A DNA stretch of 22,678 nucleotides from IMG/VR virus record IMGVR_UViG_3300036845_000163, positions 1 through 22,678 of that record. One strand, 5' to 3'. A model generated the notes under the pieces. The model searched no databases, was not told the origin of the DNA, and saw only the letters and a list, made by a program, of their open reading frames with translations. Source of the DNA: a virus. Of this stretch, positions 13,879-22,678 are shown one piece after another. Within the stretch, counting starts at the first letter, position 1; each line of letters starts with the position of its first letter. Position numbers and translations under genes: made by a program.

Positions 13879-14045
13879 GGGCCGCTGTGGGCTAGTGAGA
13901 ATGGCAGCGGCGGTAACGCCTCGTGCCCCTGCTCCGAGCAGAGATGGCATAGCCCATACTCGGTGTCGGTTCGGCGGGTGCAAGTCGGCTCGCCGTCGCA
14001 CCAGCACACATAGTCGGTGTTAGGGGACTGCGTGCCGTCGTTCAC
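13875..14045 (-). CDS. Cys-rich mini-protein, 56 aa
   Basis: Starts at GTG 14045 (GTGA overlap with the upstream stop; GGGGGAG precedes) and ends with an ATGA overlap to the next gene. Five cysteines (C14, C16, C22, C33, C36) with HLC and EQGHEALPPLP suggest one structural zinc site. Its first ten residues (NDGTQSPNT) are nearly identical to the start of the upstream 75-aa gene through a 34-bp direct repeat. Function unknown. Confidence 0.65.
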   Translation of the reverse strand: MNDGTQSPNTDYVCWCDGEPTCTRRTDTEYGLCHLCSEQGHEALPPLPFSLAHSGP

Positions 14046-14047
14046 GA
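14014..14047. repeat. 34-bp direct repeat over a gene start, copy 1
   Basis: Identical to 14238-14271, 224 bp apart. It covers the GTG start and first ~11 codons of the 56-aa gene; the flanks diverge immediately on both sides. It resembles a start-associated repeat or the trace of a duplicated gene start. Confidence 0.9.
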
Positions 14048-14269
14048 CCGCTCCCCCCGGAGTCGGCGGGCGTCGCGGCGGTATCGGACGACGTCATGTG
14101 CAGGGTGGTCCACGACTGCGGTAAGCGCGTCGTGGTACTCATCCCACAAGTGGTCGGTGTCATTGTCGCCATCGGCTTCCCATGCGGCGAGGAGCGCATC
14201 GCTCGCCAATGTCAGGCGCCGCACGGTGCCCGCATATTCGGTGTTAGGGGACTGCGTGCCGTCGTTCAC
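14042..14269 (-). CDS. Hypothetical early protein, 75 aa
   Basis: GTG at 14269 after a 35-nt gap; stop overlaps the next GTG. N-terminus VNDGTQSPNTEYAGTVRRL (shared first ten residues with the next gene), then acidic DALLAAWEADGDNDTDHLWD and HDALTAVVDHPAHDVVRYRR. It is helical and charged with no recognised domain. An in-frame extension upstream to 14494 exists but would swallow the 39-aa gene and lacks good features, so the GTG is preferred. Confidence 0.6.
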   Translation of the reverse strand: MNDGTQSPNTEYAGTVRRLTLASDALLAAWEADGDNDTDHLWDEYHDALTAVVDHPAHDVVRYRRDARRLRGERS

Positions 14270-14271
14270 GA
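14238..14271. repeat. 34-bp direct repeat over a gene start, copy 2
   Basis: Identical to 14014-14047. Covers the GTG start and first ~11 codons of the 75-aa gene. Conservation of the third codon positions in both copies points to a recent duplication or a DNA/RNA-level function. Confidence 0.9.
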
Positions 14272-17166: not shown

Positions 17167-18158
17167 TCGGTGAACCGGGTTCCGTCGGTGTTCTCCCCGG
17201 AGGCAGGAGCTTCCCCTGCCACCACCTCCGGGGAGAGGTGCTCGCCGGTAGCGTCCGTCCGCTCCAAGGTGTCCACCACCGGCGAGTCTGTGACCGAGGC
17301 AAGCAACGCCTCGAGGTGCTGTTGTGAGATTTCGTCGGACTGGCGGGGTCCCCATGTTTGGGCGGCGCGGGCGCGGGCGACGAGCGGGTCGTAGCCGGCG
17401 GCCTCGTAGGCGTCGACGAGGGCCAGTTTCGCTCGAGCGGCGGTAACGCACTCCGGCCGGTCCGCCGCGGGTGGCAGCACGCGGCGGGCCGGTTCGGAGC
17501 CCGGCGAGGTGAGCTCGCCGGTTTCCGGGTCAACCGTCGCCGGGGCCGGTCCGGTGATCTGGTCAACCTCGGAGGTGGGGCCGTCGTCGAGCTCGACGGC
17601 CAGATCGGACGGGATCTCGGCGACGCCAGCCCGGCGCAGGGCGAGGGCGAGGGCGACTTTGGCCAGCATCAGCGACGGTTTCTCGGCCCACATTTTCGCC
17701 ACGTTGCCGTTGTCGTCGGTCTGCACGAACTCCTGCCACCGGCAGGTGCCGTTGACCGGGGTCACGAACCCGCGGACGTGCACCAGGTAGCGGGCGGCGT
17801 AGGGGTAGTCGTCGGTGTCCCACAGGTCGACCCACGGCGGGGCGGTGCCGTCCTCGAGGCGGGCCGCTCGGAACTCCGGGCCTTCGATCCCGACGAGCCG
17901 GTCGGATCGGAGTGCTATGGCGATGCGGCCGTCGATCGACAGCTGGGGGCGGTGCACCTCGCGGCGGAGCCGCTTGTCGTAGCGGGGGATCAGGTAGATC
18001 TCGGGTGGGTTCGTGAACGGTGACACCTGCAGGCGTTGCGAGATCGCGCCGAACCAGACGAGCTCCTGCTCGGTGGCCTTCGGGGCCAGCTGGTCTTTGA
18101 CCATGCCCAGGAACCGGCCTCGAGGGTTAGTGCGGTCGACGAGGTCGACGGCGGTCAT
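17163..18158 (-). CDS. recT: RecT-family single-strand annealing protein
   Basis: 331 aa, ATG at 18158 overlapping the excisionase-like stop (ATGA). The core shows RecT features: VWFGAISQRLQVSPFTNPPE, IYLIPRYDKR, RPQLSIDGRIAIALRS, and WAEKPSLMLAKVALALALRR (about 170-195). The C-terminal ~130 residues are variable, acidic and Pro-rich. It anneals complementary single strands during replication-linked recombination. No lambda-Exo/RecE-like gene of usual size is adjacent; the 143-aa nuclease candidate two genes on may replace it. Confidence 0.88.
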   Translation of the reverse strand: MTAVDLVDRTNPRGRFLGMVKDQLAPKATEQELVWFGAISQRLQVSPFTNPPEIYLIPRYDKRLRREVHRPQLSIDGRIAIALRSDRLVGIEGPEFRAARLEDGTAPPWVDLWDTDDYPYAARYLVHVRGFVTPVNGTCRWQEFVQTDDNGNVAKMWAEKPSLMLAKVALALALRRAGVAEIPSDLAVELDDGPTSEVDQITGPAPATVDPETGELTSPGSEPARRVLPPAADRPECVTAARAKLALVDAYEAAGYDPLVARARAAQTWGPRQSDEISQQHLEALLASVTDSPVVDTLERTDATGEHLSPEVVAGEAPASGENTDGTRFTE

Positions 18159-18388
18159 CCGGTCTGTCGGTCGCGGTCGACGCCGGCCAGGAACCTCTCG
18201 ATGTCGACCTTAAGCACCTTCCGGCTTTTGCCGATCAGGACGATGGGCAGCGGGAACAGCCCGGCTTTCGCCAGGTGATATCCGGTACTGGTGCCGATGT
18301 CGAGGCGTCGACAGGCGTCGGCGAGAGAGATAACGCCCACGTCATCCGGCGGGGTTTGTTCGTTCCCGGTGTTTGCCATATCGGGCAT
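18155..18388 (-). CDS. Helix-turn-helix protein, excisionase (RDF) candidate
   Basis: 77 aa if started at ATG 18388; ATG 18379 and GTG 18436 are other choices, none with a good ribosome binding site. The domain VISLADACRRLDIGTSTGYH then LAKAGLFPLP...KSRKVLKVDIERFLAG is a MerR/excisionase-type (HTH_17) DNA-binding fold. First gene of the leftward early operon, facing the regulatory gap. It could be the recombination directionality factor acting on attP, or an early regulator. Separation from int by one gene and the gap is usual for lysis/lysogeny switches. Confidence 0.7.
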   Translation of the reverse strand: MPDMANTGNEQTPPDDVGVISLADACRRLDIGTSTGYHLAKAGLFPLPIVLIGKSRKVLKVDIERFLAGVDRDRQTG

Positions 18389-18616
18389 ATTTCTGTAACT
18401 ACGGTCCGTTAGCAAGGCTTTTCGTACAGGTTCCACACAAATCCAAAATCGACACGATTCGGCAAACCATTTGGGTGATTACAGAGTGTTGTCACCTAAG
18501 GGCCGGGGAACCCGGTCGTCGTCGCAGCCCAGCCCTTCCCCCTCGCAGACGGTGTAGGTGCCACGCCGGCGCCGTCCTAAGGACAACGACGCGGAATGTA
18601 GCAGGGTCTCGCGGAT
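18389..18616. promoter_or_regulatory. Divergent control region between early operon and RHH gene
   Basis: The gap between the leftward early genes and the rightward 111-aa gene holds several small palindromes: ACGGACCGT-type near 18401-18409, CCGGG-GAA-CCCGG at 18503-18515, GTCCT-A-AGGAC at 18574-18584, and CCTAAGG twice (18495-18501 and 18576-18582, 81 bp apart). This is the best place for the promoters and operators of the lysogeny switch. I could not define -35/-10 boxes with confidence. The excisionase-like gene may extend into it to 18436. Confidence 0.5.
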
Positions 18617-18952
18617 ATGCCCACTAGCTGTGGGGACAGCAACACTGTGGCGGTGGTTGGGAGACGTAAGCGGCTGACCCTTGACCTCTCCCCAGAGGGC
18701 TGGGACGGGTGGCGCGCCATGGGACGCCGTACCGGCGGCACGCACTCTGCCATGGGCAACGTGCTCGGAGCGGCGATGAAGGCCGCTATCGAGGCTGGGC
18801 TGACCGATCCAACATGGAAGGCGCTCGCCGAGCAGATCGCGGCCGCCAGCTGGGACCAACAGCACCCCGACGACCAAGATGAGACCCCGTTAACGGCTGA
18901 CCCGGAGCCGGTGCCGCAAAAACGGGGGAAGCGTCCTAGCGGATCCGGGTGA
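18617..18952 (+). CDS. Ribbon-helix-helix-like protein, lysogeny regulator candidate
   Basis: 111 aa, ATG 18617; a GTG at 18647 with GGGGA upstream is an alternative. A basic strand KRLTLDLSPEGWDGWRAMG followed by helices (SAMGNVLGAAMKAAIEAGL) fits a ribbon-helix-helix DNA-binding fold; the C-terminal third is acidic and Pro-rich with a basic end (QKRGKRPSGSG). It is the only non-mobile plus-strand gene, diverges from the early operon and converges on int with a 17-bp 3' overlap. No cI-like gene is present, so this is the best candidate for the repressor. The fold call is from pattern only. Confidence 0.55.
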   Translation: MPTSCGDSNTVAVVGRRKRLTLDLSPEGWDGWRAMGRRTGGTHSAMGNVLGAAMKAAIEAGLTDPTWKALAEQIAAASWDQQHPDDQDETPLTADPEPVPQKRGKRPSGSG

Positions 18953-20048
18953 CCGTCGCCGCCCGGCGAGGGCGGCCGACGACGTCGAGGGCGTCGAGGT
19001 TGGCGTCAGGGTCGACGTGGGCGTACCGCTTGAACACCGTGATCTCGGAGGTGTGCCCGGCGTACTTGGCGACCTTGGCCGGGTCGACGCCGTTGGCGAC
19101 CCACAGCGACACGGCGCTATGGCGCATGTCGTGGATCCGCAGCCCGGGCTTGCCGATCGCCTTCGTCGCGTCCCGCCAGAAACGGGTCCGCCAGCTGGCC
19201 AGCCGTAGGTAGCCGCCCTTGGGGGCCGGGAAGGCGATGTCGTCGGGGTGCTTGCCGTCGAGGTAGGCGGCGAGCTCGTCGGCCAGCCAGGGCACGATCG
19301 GCACCACCCGGCGGCCGGCCGGGGTCTTGGGGGGCCCGAACACGAGGTGGCCGCTGACTTCGGTGACGATCTTCGTCACGACCACCCGGCGGCGGACCAC
19401 GTCGATGTCGCCCACGGTGAGCCCGACGAGCTCCCCGATCCGCATACCCGACCAGCAGGCGAGCAGCAGCAGTTCGCGGTAGCGGGGGTCGATGGCGTTG
19501 GCCAGGTCGTGGATCTGCGCGGCGGTGATGGTCTGCATCTCTTTGACCTCGTCGCGGGGCACCTTGACGTCGGTGCAAGGGTTGGCCGGGATCAGCCCGT
19601 CGGTGACGGCCTGGGCGAGGATCTTTTTCAGGATCTGTTTCGCCTTTTCGACCGTGCTCGGGGCTAGCCCGCGATCGGTGGCCAGACTGGCAATCCATTC
19701 CCGCACGGCCGGGGCCTTGATGTCGCCGATCGGGACCGTCCCGAACCGGGGGATCAGGTACCGCTTCAGGTAGCCGAGATCGCGGACCTTGGTGGACTGG
19801 CGCAGGTGGACGACGGTCGCAGCCCATTCGGCCGCGTAGTCGGCGAATCGGACGACGCCGCCACGCTCGTCGACCAGCTTGCCGTCACGCTGGTTGACCC
19901 GGACGTGGTCGAGCCAGGACTGGGCCTCGTCGCGGGTGTCGAATGTGCTGGGCGCCTTGTGATGGAATCCGTCGTCCCCCATCCACCGGGCCTGATATCG
20001 GCCGGAGCCGATCTGGCGGACGTTGCCGAACCGGCTACGGCGGGTCAC
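18936..20048 (-). CDS. int: Tyrosine-family site-specific integrase
   Basis: 370 aa, GTG at 20048 overlapping the stop of the acidic gene (GTGA). An AP2-like arm-binding N-terminus (RYQARWMGDDGFHHKAPSTF) is followed by the core-binding SAM-like domain (about 66-160) and the catalytic domain with R203 (CWSGMRIGEL), K241, HDMRH (H306, R309), H332 (AGHTSEITVF) and nucleophile Y342 (KRYAH). All catalytic residues are intact. It recombines attP, which lies about 400 bp upstream, with a host tRNA-Val locus. Longer frames to 20396 exist but would run through the acidic gene and arm sites. Confidence 0.95.
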   Translation of the reverse strand: MTRRSRFGNVRQIGSGRYQARWMGDDGFHHKAPSTFDTRDEAQSWLDHVRVNQRDGKLVDERGGVVRFADYAAEWAATVVHLRQSTKVRDLGYLKRYLIPRFGTVPIGDIKAPAVREWIASLATDRGLAPSTVEKAKQILKKILAQAVTDGLIPANPCTDVKVPRDEVKEMQTITAAQIHDLANAIDPRYRELLLLACWSGMRIGELVGLTVGDIDVVRRRVVVTKIVTEVSGHLVFGPPKTPAGRRVVPIVPWLADELAAYLDGKHPDDIAFPAPKGGYLRLASWRTRFWRDATKAIGKPGLRIHDMRHSAVSLWVANGVDPAKVAKYAGHTSEITVFKRYAHVDPDANLDALDVVGRPRRAATVTRIR

Positions 20049-20269
20049 GACCGGGGCCTCTTGTGGGGCTCGGCGGTGAGAATGGCATCGATCACGGCGT
20101 CGCGGATCACGTTGAACAACTGGACCGCGGTCAAGTCGACCACCCGGACCTCGTTGGCGTGAAGGTGGGCCAGAGACTCTTCGAGGGCGAGCTCGAACTC
20201 TTCTTCTTCTTCGACCTCGGCGTCCTCGTCCAGATCGGCGAGCTCTTGGTCGGTAGGTAGCTTGGGCAT
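20045..20269 (-). CDS. Small acidic protein coupled to integrase, 74 aa
   Basis: ATG at 20269 with GGGAGGT about 8 nt upstream, which decides this start over an in-frame ATG at 20365 lying in the arm-type repeats. Acidic N-terminus (DQELADLDEDAEVEEEEEFE) and a helical C-terminus (VVDLTAVQLFNVIRDAVIDA) ending KRPRS. It is coupled to int by GTGA and lies between attP and int. Family not recognised. It might regulate integrase (activity or directionality) or act as a small partner; this is inferred from position. Confidence 0.7.
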   Translation of the reverse strand: MPKLPTDQELADLDEDAEVEEEEEFELALEESLAHLHANEVRVVDLTAVQLFNVIRDAVIDAILTAEPHKRPRS

Positions 20270-20299: not shown

Positions 20300-20339
20300 G
20301 GGGCCGGGCCTGTGGAAGCGGGCGCCGGCCCCATTTTTT
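20300..20339 (+). terminator. Rho-independent terminator, plus strand
   Basis: GGGGCCGG (20300-20307) pairs perfectly with CCGGCCCC (20325-20332), followed by A and six T (20334-20339). It stops rightward transcription between int and attP, so transcripts running antisense through int from the RHH side would end before the attachment site. Only the plus-strand orientation has the T-tract. Confidence 0.75.
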
Positions 20340-20365
20340 GGCATCTTGCCAAAACGCTTTGGCAA
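20338..20365. repeat. Left attP arm: clustered TTGGCA/TGCCAA inverted repeats
   Basis: TTGGCA-TCT-TGCCAA (20338-20352) overlaps TTGCCAAA-ACGC-TTTGGCAA (20346-20365, perfect 8-bp arms). The same TTGGCA word recurs as direct repeats on the other side of the attP core, the pattern of arm-type integrase sites. It also overlaps the T-tract of the terminator. Confidence 0.65.
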
Positions 20366-20437
20366 GGATGTGGCACGGCGTCCGCTGGAATCTCATGCTC
20401 TGGCGCCCCGCATGGCCTCTGACCTGCGGTTTTGTTC

Positions 20438-20480
20438 GTGGGCGCTAGAGGACTCGAACCTCCGACCTCAGCCGTGTGAA
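20438..20480 (-). other. attP: attP core: 3' half of tRNA-Val(CAC)
   Basis: On the minus strand this 43-bp stretch reads as a tRNA 3' half: anticodon loop TTCACAC (CAC, valine), 3' anticodon stem GGCTG, variable loop AGGTC, T-arm GGAGG-TTCGAGT-CCTCT, acceptor strand AGCGCCC and discriminator A. The 5' half is absent: the bases before the loop (TGACT) do not pair properly with GGCTG. Integration into a host tRNA-Val(CAC) gene would therefore rebuild an intact tRNA. The crossover is probably in or near the anticodon loop. It lies in the int-lysis gap between two sets of arm repeats. Confidence 0.85.
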
Positions 20481-20532
20481 AGTCAACACCTCCGGCACAG
20501 AACATAGCAAACGGGAAAATGCAGGGCTATTC

Positions 20533-20559
20533 GGGAACACTTCACGGCCTTTCGTTCCC
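20533..20559. repeat. GGGAAC/GTTCCC inverted repeat in attP region
   Basis: GGGAAC (20533-20538) and GTTCCC (20554-20559) are separated by 15 bases. There is no adjacent T-tract, so it may be an integrase/RDF site or a weak terminator for the late operon. A CAATATTG palindrome follows at 20570-20577. Confidence 0.4.
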
Positions 20560-20594
20560 CTAATAGTGTCAATATTGCCGCCCGGTGTCGATGT

Positions 20595-20616
20595 TCTTGG
20601 CACGGCTCTTGGCACG
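20595..20616. repeat. Right attP arm: tandem TCTTGGCACG repeats
   Basis: TCTTGGCACG occurs at 20595-20604 and 20607-20616, a 12-bp period, and shares TTGGCA with the left arm repeats. Two directly repeated arm-type sites flanking a tRNA-derived core are typical of tyrosine integrase attP regions. The repeats end 2 bp before the stop of the 29-aa gene. Confidence 0.65.
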
Positions 20617-22028: not shown

Positions 22029-22370
22029 TCAGCTTTCGGATATCGGAACGCCTTCCGAGGTGTAATACAGGGCTGCGACGACCGGGAAGTTGGCCTGGGT
22101 CAGCGACAGCAGGTCGCCGTCGGTGACCTTGGCCTGGTCGATGGTCCCGTCGCCGTTGTCGGCCTTATCACCGATACCCGGCCCGGCCGCGTCCATGCGG
22201 ACGAATGTGCCGACGACCGGGCCGACACCGCGGAGCACGTCATCGGCGGTGGCGGCGATATCGGCGCGGCCGTCGTCCTTGTAGGTTTCGGCCTGCTCGG
22301 TCGCCGACGCGGTGGCACGCCCGGCGAACGTCGGGTCGCTGGTCAGCTGGTAGATCGATGCGTATGACAT
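22029..22370 (-). CDS. Conserved phage hypothetical protein, 113 aa
   Basis: ATG at 22370 with an optimal ribosome binding site (AAGGAG). It starts MSYASIYQLTSDPTFAGRAT, continues helical (SATEQAETYKDDGRADIAAT) and ends with VAALYYTSEGVPISES. Similar MSYAS... proteins occur near tail-tip and lysis genes in actinophages, but I know no function. Its first four codons are also those of the 83-aa duplicate gene upstream, apparently copied with the leader. Confidence 0.7.
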   Translation of the reverse strand: MSYASIYQLTSDPTFAGRATASATEQAETYKDDGRADIAATADDVLRGVGPVVGTFVRMDAAGPGIGDKADNGDGTIDQAKVTDGDLLSLTQANFPVVAALYYTSEGVPISES

Positions 22371-22616
22371 ACGTATATCTCCTTAGGTGCCGATGTCCTC
22401 GATGAGCAGGGTCGACGGGGCGCCGGTGTTGGCCAGGGCGGTTACCGCCCCGGTACCGGACTGCAATGCGACGTTGAGCGAGTAGGTGTGCGACCCGGCG
22501 ACCGGGACGCCCTGCCAGAACATCGACACGCCCTGCTGGCCGGCGCCGCCGACCGCGGCGATCCGGGTCGGGTAGCTGGCCAGCACCGTCGCCCCTTCCA
22601 TCAGCCGCAGGGCGGC
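22358..22616. repeat. 259-bp repeat unit, fully contained copy
   Basis: This copy spans the leader and start of the 113-aa gene plus the fibre C-terminal region. Its first 57 bp equal 22622-22678 and its last 127 bp equal 1-127. If the intervening 75 bp (22415-22489) also exist unassembled at the contig junction, the second copy is complete and the two form a direct tandem repeat with 264-bp period, joined by 5 bp (22617-22621). Confidence 0.85.
22371..22387 (-). promoter_or_regulatory. Very strong ribosome binding site of the 113-aa gene
   Basis: Minus strand TAAGGAGATATACGT then ATG: full AAGGAG complement to the 16S rRNA tail at about 8 nt spacing, beginning in the stop codon of the upstream gene. 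It differs by one base from the T7 gene 10 leader core (AAGGAGATATACATATG). The same leader occurs at 22635-22651 before the 83-aa gene. Confidence 0.8.
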
Positions 22617-22634
22617 GAGATATGCGTATGACAT
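22383..22634 (-). CDS. 83-aa duplicate of the fibre C-terminal domain as a separate gene
   Basis: ATG at 22634 with the strong AAGGAG leader. The first five residues (MSYAY) come from the start of the 113-aa gene; from LAALRLMEGATVLASYPTRI to the end LLIEDIGT it equals the fibre C-terminus. The fusion is in frame. It lacks the first strands of the tip domain (present in the full fibre as APAFTTDGTRRIKVTYNG), so it is a partial domain. It could be a real mini-gene producing extra tip subunits, or a chimera made by assembly at the repeat. The 3' part must in any case be real because it completes the fibre gene. Confidence 0.5.
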   Translation of the reverse strand: MSYAYLAALRLMEGATVLASYPTRIAAVGGAGQQGVSMFWQGVPVAGSHTYSLNVALQSGTGAVTALANTGAPSTLLIEDIGT

Positions 22635-22678
22635 ACGTATATCTCCTTAGGTGCCGATGTCCTCGATGAGCAGGGTCG
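22622..22678. repeat. Right-end repeat (copy of 22358-22414)
   Basis: 57 bp identical to 22358-22414; it runs to the window end, so true length is unknown. It places a second copy of the leader and of the fibre 3' end upstream of the 83-aa gene. Confidence 0.9.
22647..22678 (-). CDS. 3' end of the tail fibre gene (partial, continues at window start)
   Basis: Minus strand encodes the last codons (TLLIEDIGT) and TAA of the fibre, directly upstream of the 83-aa gene leader. With the tandem-repeat model, 32 nt here plus 75 unassembled nt plus 787 nt at the other edge give the same 298-codon fibre gene. Confidence 0.6.
   Translation of the reverse strand, partial: TLLIEDIGT

Follow-up and report, generated by a model that had tools for sequence, protein, structure and literature searches.

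The window, which is the whole stretch of DNA analyzed here, corresponds to a full virus record of 22,678 bases. Self-comparison of the window revealed that bases 1-127 are repeated exactly at 22490-22616 and that a 57-base stub at the record end (22622-22678) is an exact copy of 22358-22414. Hence, the phage genome is probably a circle of about 22.5 kb (~22.49 kb) and the record contains a small assembly overrun. Additionally, a 39-bp direct repeat with 97% identity was observed at 14009-14047 and 14233-14271, its two copies starting 224 bp apart. Recognizable phage genes encode a terminase, portal, major head and tape measure proteins, an endolysin, RecT and a tyrosine integrase; this is the gene content of a small tailed temperate phage. 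Three genes surround the integration functions:

18936-20048, minus strand: tyrosine integrase with a GTG start; N-terminal, SAM-like core-binding and catalytic domains (PF00589, PF22022, PF14659; phrog_1; AlphaFold model and PDB matches)
20045-20269, minus strand: small acidic ORF of 74 amino acids between att site and int, with a glutamate run; its stop overlaps the GTG start of int
18155-18436, minus strand: HTH_17/excisionase-like protein downstream of int (PF12728 below cut-off; phrog_66, excisionase and transcriptional regulator)

Domain and phrog searches yielded no family match for the acidic ORF. The HTH_17/excisionase-like protein is a candidate recombination directionality factor and may reverse integration. 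The integrase contains core-binding and catalytic domains (PF22022/PF14659, PF00589) together with the R-K-HxxR-H-Y residues, and its translation shows the motifs GMR, PKT, HDMR, AGH and KRY. PDB alignments of the integrase model mainly cover residues 58-369, with lambda Int among the matches. The N-terminal domain had no Pfam match; the AlphaFold model predicts three strands (residues 7-11, 17-22 and 28-35) followed by a helix (38-53), and the motif SGRYQA lies at the start of strand 2 of this domain. Sheets of this kind contact DNA in Tn916 Int and in AP2-type domains.

The attachment site is located upstream of these genes. Its center consists of two nested features:

20438-20480, minus strand: attP common core, tRNA-Val(CAC) 3' half extending from the anticodon loop to one base past the discriminator (43-bp exact identity with tRNA genes of Acidimicrobiia MAGs)
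20474-20480, minus strand: likely overlap region, anticodon loop TTCACAC, with the first anticodon base at 20478 taken as offset 0 (placed by the identity boundary; exact cut presumptive)

On the minus strand, 20438-20480 reads TTCACACGGCTGAGGTCGGAGGTTCGAGTCCTCTAGCGCCCAC and comprises the CAC anticodon loop, variable loop, T arm, acceptor 3' strand, discriminator A and an extra C; the tRNA 3' half originally predicted at this position is indeed present. Rfam and ARAGORN detected no complete RNA, tRNA included, in the window, and no tRNA 5' half was detected near the core. The core ends about 390 bp from the start of the tyrosine integrase gene (PF00589), and its 43 bp lie within the 30-45 bp typical of tRNA 3' half cores. 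Since the phage carries an exact tRNA 3' half, insertion would be possible without breaking the host tRNA gene.

Candidate host genes were identified by comparing the inner 40 bases of the core with GTDB, using one genome per species. The scan gave 70 exact copies on 69 stretches, and 62 of them lie within complete tRNA-Val(CAC) genes as determined by ARAGORN. Actinobacterial tRNA-Val(CAC) genes ending in the 43-bp core, for which the original prediction had proposed to search, were thus found, and the objection that no host tRNA carries the core does not hold. By record title, the carriers are Acidimicrobiales, Acidimicrobiaceae, Ferrimicrobium or MAGs of Actinobacteria/Actinomycetes. Identity between phage and host comprises 43 bp in 65 of the 70 copies and is slightly longer in the remainder. 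These matches support Acidimicrobiia as the predicted host class and the 3' half of the host tRNA-Val(CAC) gene as the predicted target, in agreement with the valine tRNA gene named at the outset. One record (L056), titled Candidatus Saccharibacteria, has an Acidimicrobiia tRNA-Val(CAC) gene; this MAG is probably mislabelled or contaminated.

Six of the 70 copies are orphan 3' halves (L004, L023, L024, L028, L034 and the second copy in L062); the other two non-complete copies are a longer fragment (L022) and a copy at a contig edge (L031). In L062 (3076-6197), a complete tRNA-Val(CAC) gene and an orphan 3' half are located 3.0 kb apart; hydrolase-like ORFs lie between them and no integrase was found there, an arrangement consistent with a small island remnant. 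Identity to the host tRNA stops 2-5 nt 5' of CACAC in the window, where the distance is 2 nt, and in six of seven orphan tRNA fragments. This recurrent boundary indicates that strands are most likely exchanged in the anticodon loop, the exact cut position being one that we infer from the boundary. Strand exchange at the anticodon loop was reported to be common in mycobacteriophages (PMC10865867).

The target was also analyzed from the side of the integrase. The integrases most similar to that of the window (38-45% identity) among 397 genomes of the order adjoin tRNA-Val. Within the best 18 integrase loci, all 11 with a complete nearby tRNA are located at tRNA-Val (nine CAC and two TAC), and remoter integrases of the order are mostly found at Pro, Arg, Ala, Gly and other tRNAs. 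A maximum-likelihood tree grouped the window integrase with those of L097, L112 and L057 with a support of 95/84, all three being located beside tRNA-Val(CAC); furthermore, L112 and L057 show the same gene order of tRNA, small ORF and int as the window, with the same reading direction. By sequence, the window integrase belongs to a clade predicted to target tRNA-Val(CAC).

Repeats predicted to be arm-type sites were found on both sides of the core:

20368-20377, minus strand: P' arm site 1, CGTGCCACAT, at +101 (fits the arm-pair position of the family; identical 10-mer at identical offset in L147)
20357-20366, minus strand: P' arm site 2, CTTGCCAAAG, at +112, spaced 11 bp from site 1
20345-20354, plus strand: extra inverted copy CTTGCCAAAA; 9 bp of it (20345-20353) are repeated perfectly in inverted orientation at 20358-20366
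20335-20344, minus strand: extra weaker copy ATGCCAAAAA
20595-20604, minus strand: P arm site CGTGCCAAGA, at -126
20607-20616, minus strand: P arm site CGTGCCAAGA, at -138; 12 bp, not 11 bp, from the copy at -126

P' sites 1 and 2 agree at only 7 of 10 bases. The locus L147, which is situated beside tRNA-Gly, carries the same CGTGCCACAT at the same offset as the window. CGTGCCAA is the reverse complement of the word TTGGCACG used in the original prediction; the window arms read CGTGCCA. An inverted TTGGCA/TGCCAA cluster had been proposed at 20338-20365; it is present, but the sites fitting the arm pattern are 20368-20377 and 20357-20366, and the copies at 20335-20354 are extra and partly inverted. 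Likewise, the two tandem TCTTGGCACG copies assigned to 20595-20616 exist and are more precisely located at 20595-20604 and 20607-20616, 12 bp apart. It had further been suggested that the whole site can be drawn from the sequence; all elements then listed were recovered, but the best downstream copy, CGTGCCACAT, and a box at 20415-20427 had been missed.

TTGGCA occurs seven times in the 22.7 kb, with five copies within 20338-20614, and is the most concentrated hexamer of the window. Some hexamer was equally clustered in 2 of 60 first-order Markov replicates; clustering alone is thus only modestly beyond chance, and the case for arm sites rests on comparative evidence. For this purpose, 73 tRNA genes followed on their 3' side by an integrase were compared, an arm pair being defined as two 10-mers with ≤1 mismatch and a spacing of exactly 11 bp at +60 to +200 from the anticodon. 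Such a pair was present at 44 of the 73 loci as compared to 0.4 in shuffled sequences, and other spacings gave ≤5. Most pairs begin at +98 to +115, and the repeated word is private to each element. No clear pair was found at 29 loci, no box at 10 and neither at 6 of the 73.

Arm sequence follows the integrase N-terminal domain. Similarity of arms tracked the first 60 integrase residues when the C-terminal part was controlled for (partial Mantel 0.27, p = 0.001, 47 loci), whereas with the N-terminal domain controlled for, the correlation with the C-terminal domain was 0.05 (p = 0.17, 47 loci). A CGTGC pair was found at 18 of 23 loci with the integrase signature SGR[YWF][QR]A as compared to 0 of 46 without it (69 loci, window excluded; p = 2e-12, a value not derived from a blind test since the signature was chosen after viewing the alignment). 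Several signature loci without a CGTGC pair have near-pairs. As the loci are related to one another, the p-values of the locus comparisons, here and for the box below, are too small. The window integrase carries the signature as SGRYQA, and its predicted arms contain CGTGCCA. Related integrases were reported to differ in arm sites in a manner tied to the N-terminal domain (PMC3203893); a rule connecting N-terminal domain and arm sequence was not found described in the open-licence literature searched.

The TTGGCA sites (CGTGCCA) are most likely arm sites of the integrase, and the proposal of a shared hexamer as arm motif agrees with relatives having a similar N-terminal domain in position, tandem spacing and sequence. 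We also considered that the core is real and these sites are an operator for a phage repressor or excisionase, the right pair being incidental. An operator would be in keeping with the perfect inverted repeat (20345-20353/20358-20366) that precedes the small ORF and int, with the HTH protein encoded nearby and with the modest clustering of the hexamer. However, the core has a pair on either side (+101/+112 and -126/-138), private tandem arms near +100 are found in many other elements, CGTGC is the very sequence found in relatives with the same N-domain signature, and a promoter/terminator scan gave no signal overlapping the TTGGCA clusters. An operator in place of arm sites therefore appears improbable; the two roles could coexist at the same sites. 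An interim reading, by which TTGGCA was private to this element and perhaps no arm site, was dropped given the 11-bp pairs, their positions and the N-domain signature.

The novel lead emerging from the comparison with about 70 other sites is a shared box at a fixed distance from the core. The box, CCWGGTCAGRGGC, starts about 10-13 bases past the tRNA 3' end, near +52. In the window it is represented by:

20415-20427, minus strand: shared att box GCAGGTCAGAGGC; the W of WGGTCA lies at +53 from the first anticodon base (weight matrix top match)

This is the best weight-matrix match in the whole 22.7-kb window on both strands, and the window was outside the training set. The box was found in one locus set and then tested on a held-out set, where it occurred at 24 of 39 integrase-adjacent tRNAs as compared to 7 of 59 control tRNAs (p = 3e-7) and at no displaced position. 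By weight matrix, it was present at 58 of 73 integrase-adjacent tRNAs and at 8 of 59 controls; the control tRNAs may include decayed elements. Its offset from the first anticodon base is mostly 52-54 and in some loci 42 or 64, i.e. about one helical turn apart. Positions of box and arms covary (r = 0.92, n = 40), the box staying near the midpoint between crossover and arms. Some att sites have a box on both sides, as L024 does at +51 and -59. Box-like sequences were also found in attP of Tweety (ACAGGTCAGAGGC) and Pixie (CCAGGTCAACGGG), and a weak one in Giles-type phages. In the Gordonia phage Finkle (L207:3845-3874) and in Pixie (L213, attP region), the box-like sequence is located inside a stem-loop beside the core, so that in some phages the box may coincide in part with a terminator. 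The literature searched, open-licence only, yielded no description of the box.

The box was found with int in either orientation; hence, it is not an int promoter. Its constancy while the arms change favors the reading that the box is probably the site of action of a bending or architectural protein shared among the elements or of an invariant part of the integrase complex, a role suggested by its position and conservation. As a less likely alternative within the same overall explanation, the box could be another integrase site, of arm type and near the core, instead of a host-factor or hinge site. It is element-borne, keeps a fixed helical phase (42, 52-54, 64) and occurs on both sides in L024, as such a site might; yet the box is constant and arm sequences vary with the N-terminal domain, which makes it unlikely that the same domain reads both. 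We tentatively propose, at somewhat less than even odds, that actinobacterial tRNA-targeting integrases share an unrecognized att component. This component would be the CCWGGTCAGRGGC box, placed midway between the arms and the anticodon-loop crossover and roughly five helical turns from the latter. Whatever the tRNA target or arm specificity, the box would stay the same, and a common factor binding it would fold the recombination complex; the arm sequence would be readable from the N-terminal signature.

Furthermore, integrated copies and relatives of the phage were searched for. The 397 genomes of the order yielded no prophage of this phage or of any near relative; the portal protein had no strong match there in a search run without a positive control. 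Viral contigs contained neither the exact core nor, with a single-sequence query, integrase relatives, and blastn did not detect the attachment region in the phage collection. Related small phages (L113-L129) share the portal protein with 45-72% identity; among ten of the portal-sharing records searched, only one weak match to the integrase was obtained, and the scanned loci of portal-related phages contained no clear tRNA half. Judged from these comparisons, the integration module looks exchanged among portal-sharing phages. The missing integrated copy, in viral contigs as in the 397 genomes, is what would be expected if the tRNA half were a relic, left by a past integration or picked up from a host, that no longer serves as attP. 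This is very improbable: living host genes match the 43 bp exactly, the integrase has retained its domains and groups within a tRNA-Val clade, and box and arms occupy their expected positions.

The best explanation, to which we assign a probability of about 90%, is that the region is attP of a temperate phage of Acidimicrobiia, the integrase of which recombines with the 3' half of tRNA-Val(CAC) by exchange in the anticodon loop, with CGTGCCA arms and the box between. The integrase (18936-20048) would recombine attP with the 3' half of the host tRNA-Val(CAC) gene, and strands would be exchanged in the anticodon loop; consequently, the 43 bp carried by the phage would complete the tRNA gene at one junction, and the other junction would retain an orphan 3' half. 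The integrase N-terminal domain would bridge the core to the tandem CGTGCCA arms at +101/+112 (P') and -126/-138 (P), and the DNA between core and arms would be bent near the box CCWGGTCAGRGGC, about half-way from the crossover to the P' arms. The excisionase-like HTH protein (18155-18436, minus strand) may reverse the reaction.

An unclassified circular phage is thereby assigned to Acidimicrobiia hosts and given an integration site, which is useful because Acidimicrobiia have hardly been cultured. In addition, a rule set is obtained for tRNA-targeted att sites of Actinomycetota: crossover in the anticodon loop, a box near +52, private 11-bp tandem arms near +100 and an arm sequence tied to the N-terminal domain. 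With these rules, testable predictions of attP, arms and integrase specificity can be made from sequence; the rules also hint at a common factor.

Published actinophage attP sites share a plan of a 30-45 bp tRNA core, an adjacent int and pairs of arm repeats (PMC10865867, PMC3203893, PMC2884959); the site in the window is therefore of a known type in a little-studied host class. Published analogues are Tweety, Pixie and CrimD. In Tweety and Pixie, which use tRNA-Lys (PMC2884959, PMC3203893), attP is located just upstream of int as in the window, and the core is likewise a tRNA 3' half, of 47 bp as compared to 43 bp. Both phages also have tandem repeats on both sides, 12-13 bp apart by our reading, and a box-like sequence on the tRNA 3' side, but they differ from the window in tRNA, arm sequences and host class. 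Tweety integration was tested with plasmids, whereas the window attP is predicted from sequence. Giles-type attP (Amochick, L210) resembles the window in having a tRNA 3' half as core (Pro) and tandem repeats with a spacing of 12 bp on both sides; its repeats are different (TTTGACCCCAAT), and its box-like sequence (GCAGATCAGGGGC) is a poorer match situated closer by about one helical turn.

Lambda Int is a three-domain tyrosine integrase with an arm-binding N-terminal domain; its arms flank the core, and bending of the DNA between them is needed. The predicted domain plan of the window integrase and its putative arms on both sides of the core resemble those of lambda; unlike in the window, attB of lambda is no tRNA gene and the IHF sites do not resemble the box. 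Further counterparts are the integrated elements L112, L057 and L097 of Acidimicrobiia, which have the tRNA-Val(CAC) target, the integrase clade and the box in common with the window. Their arms differ from those of the window (GTTTGTCCGC in L112 and ACGGGAACT in L097; none was called in L057), and L112 and L057 carry a small HTH-like ORF between att and int where the window has the acidic ORF.
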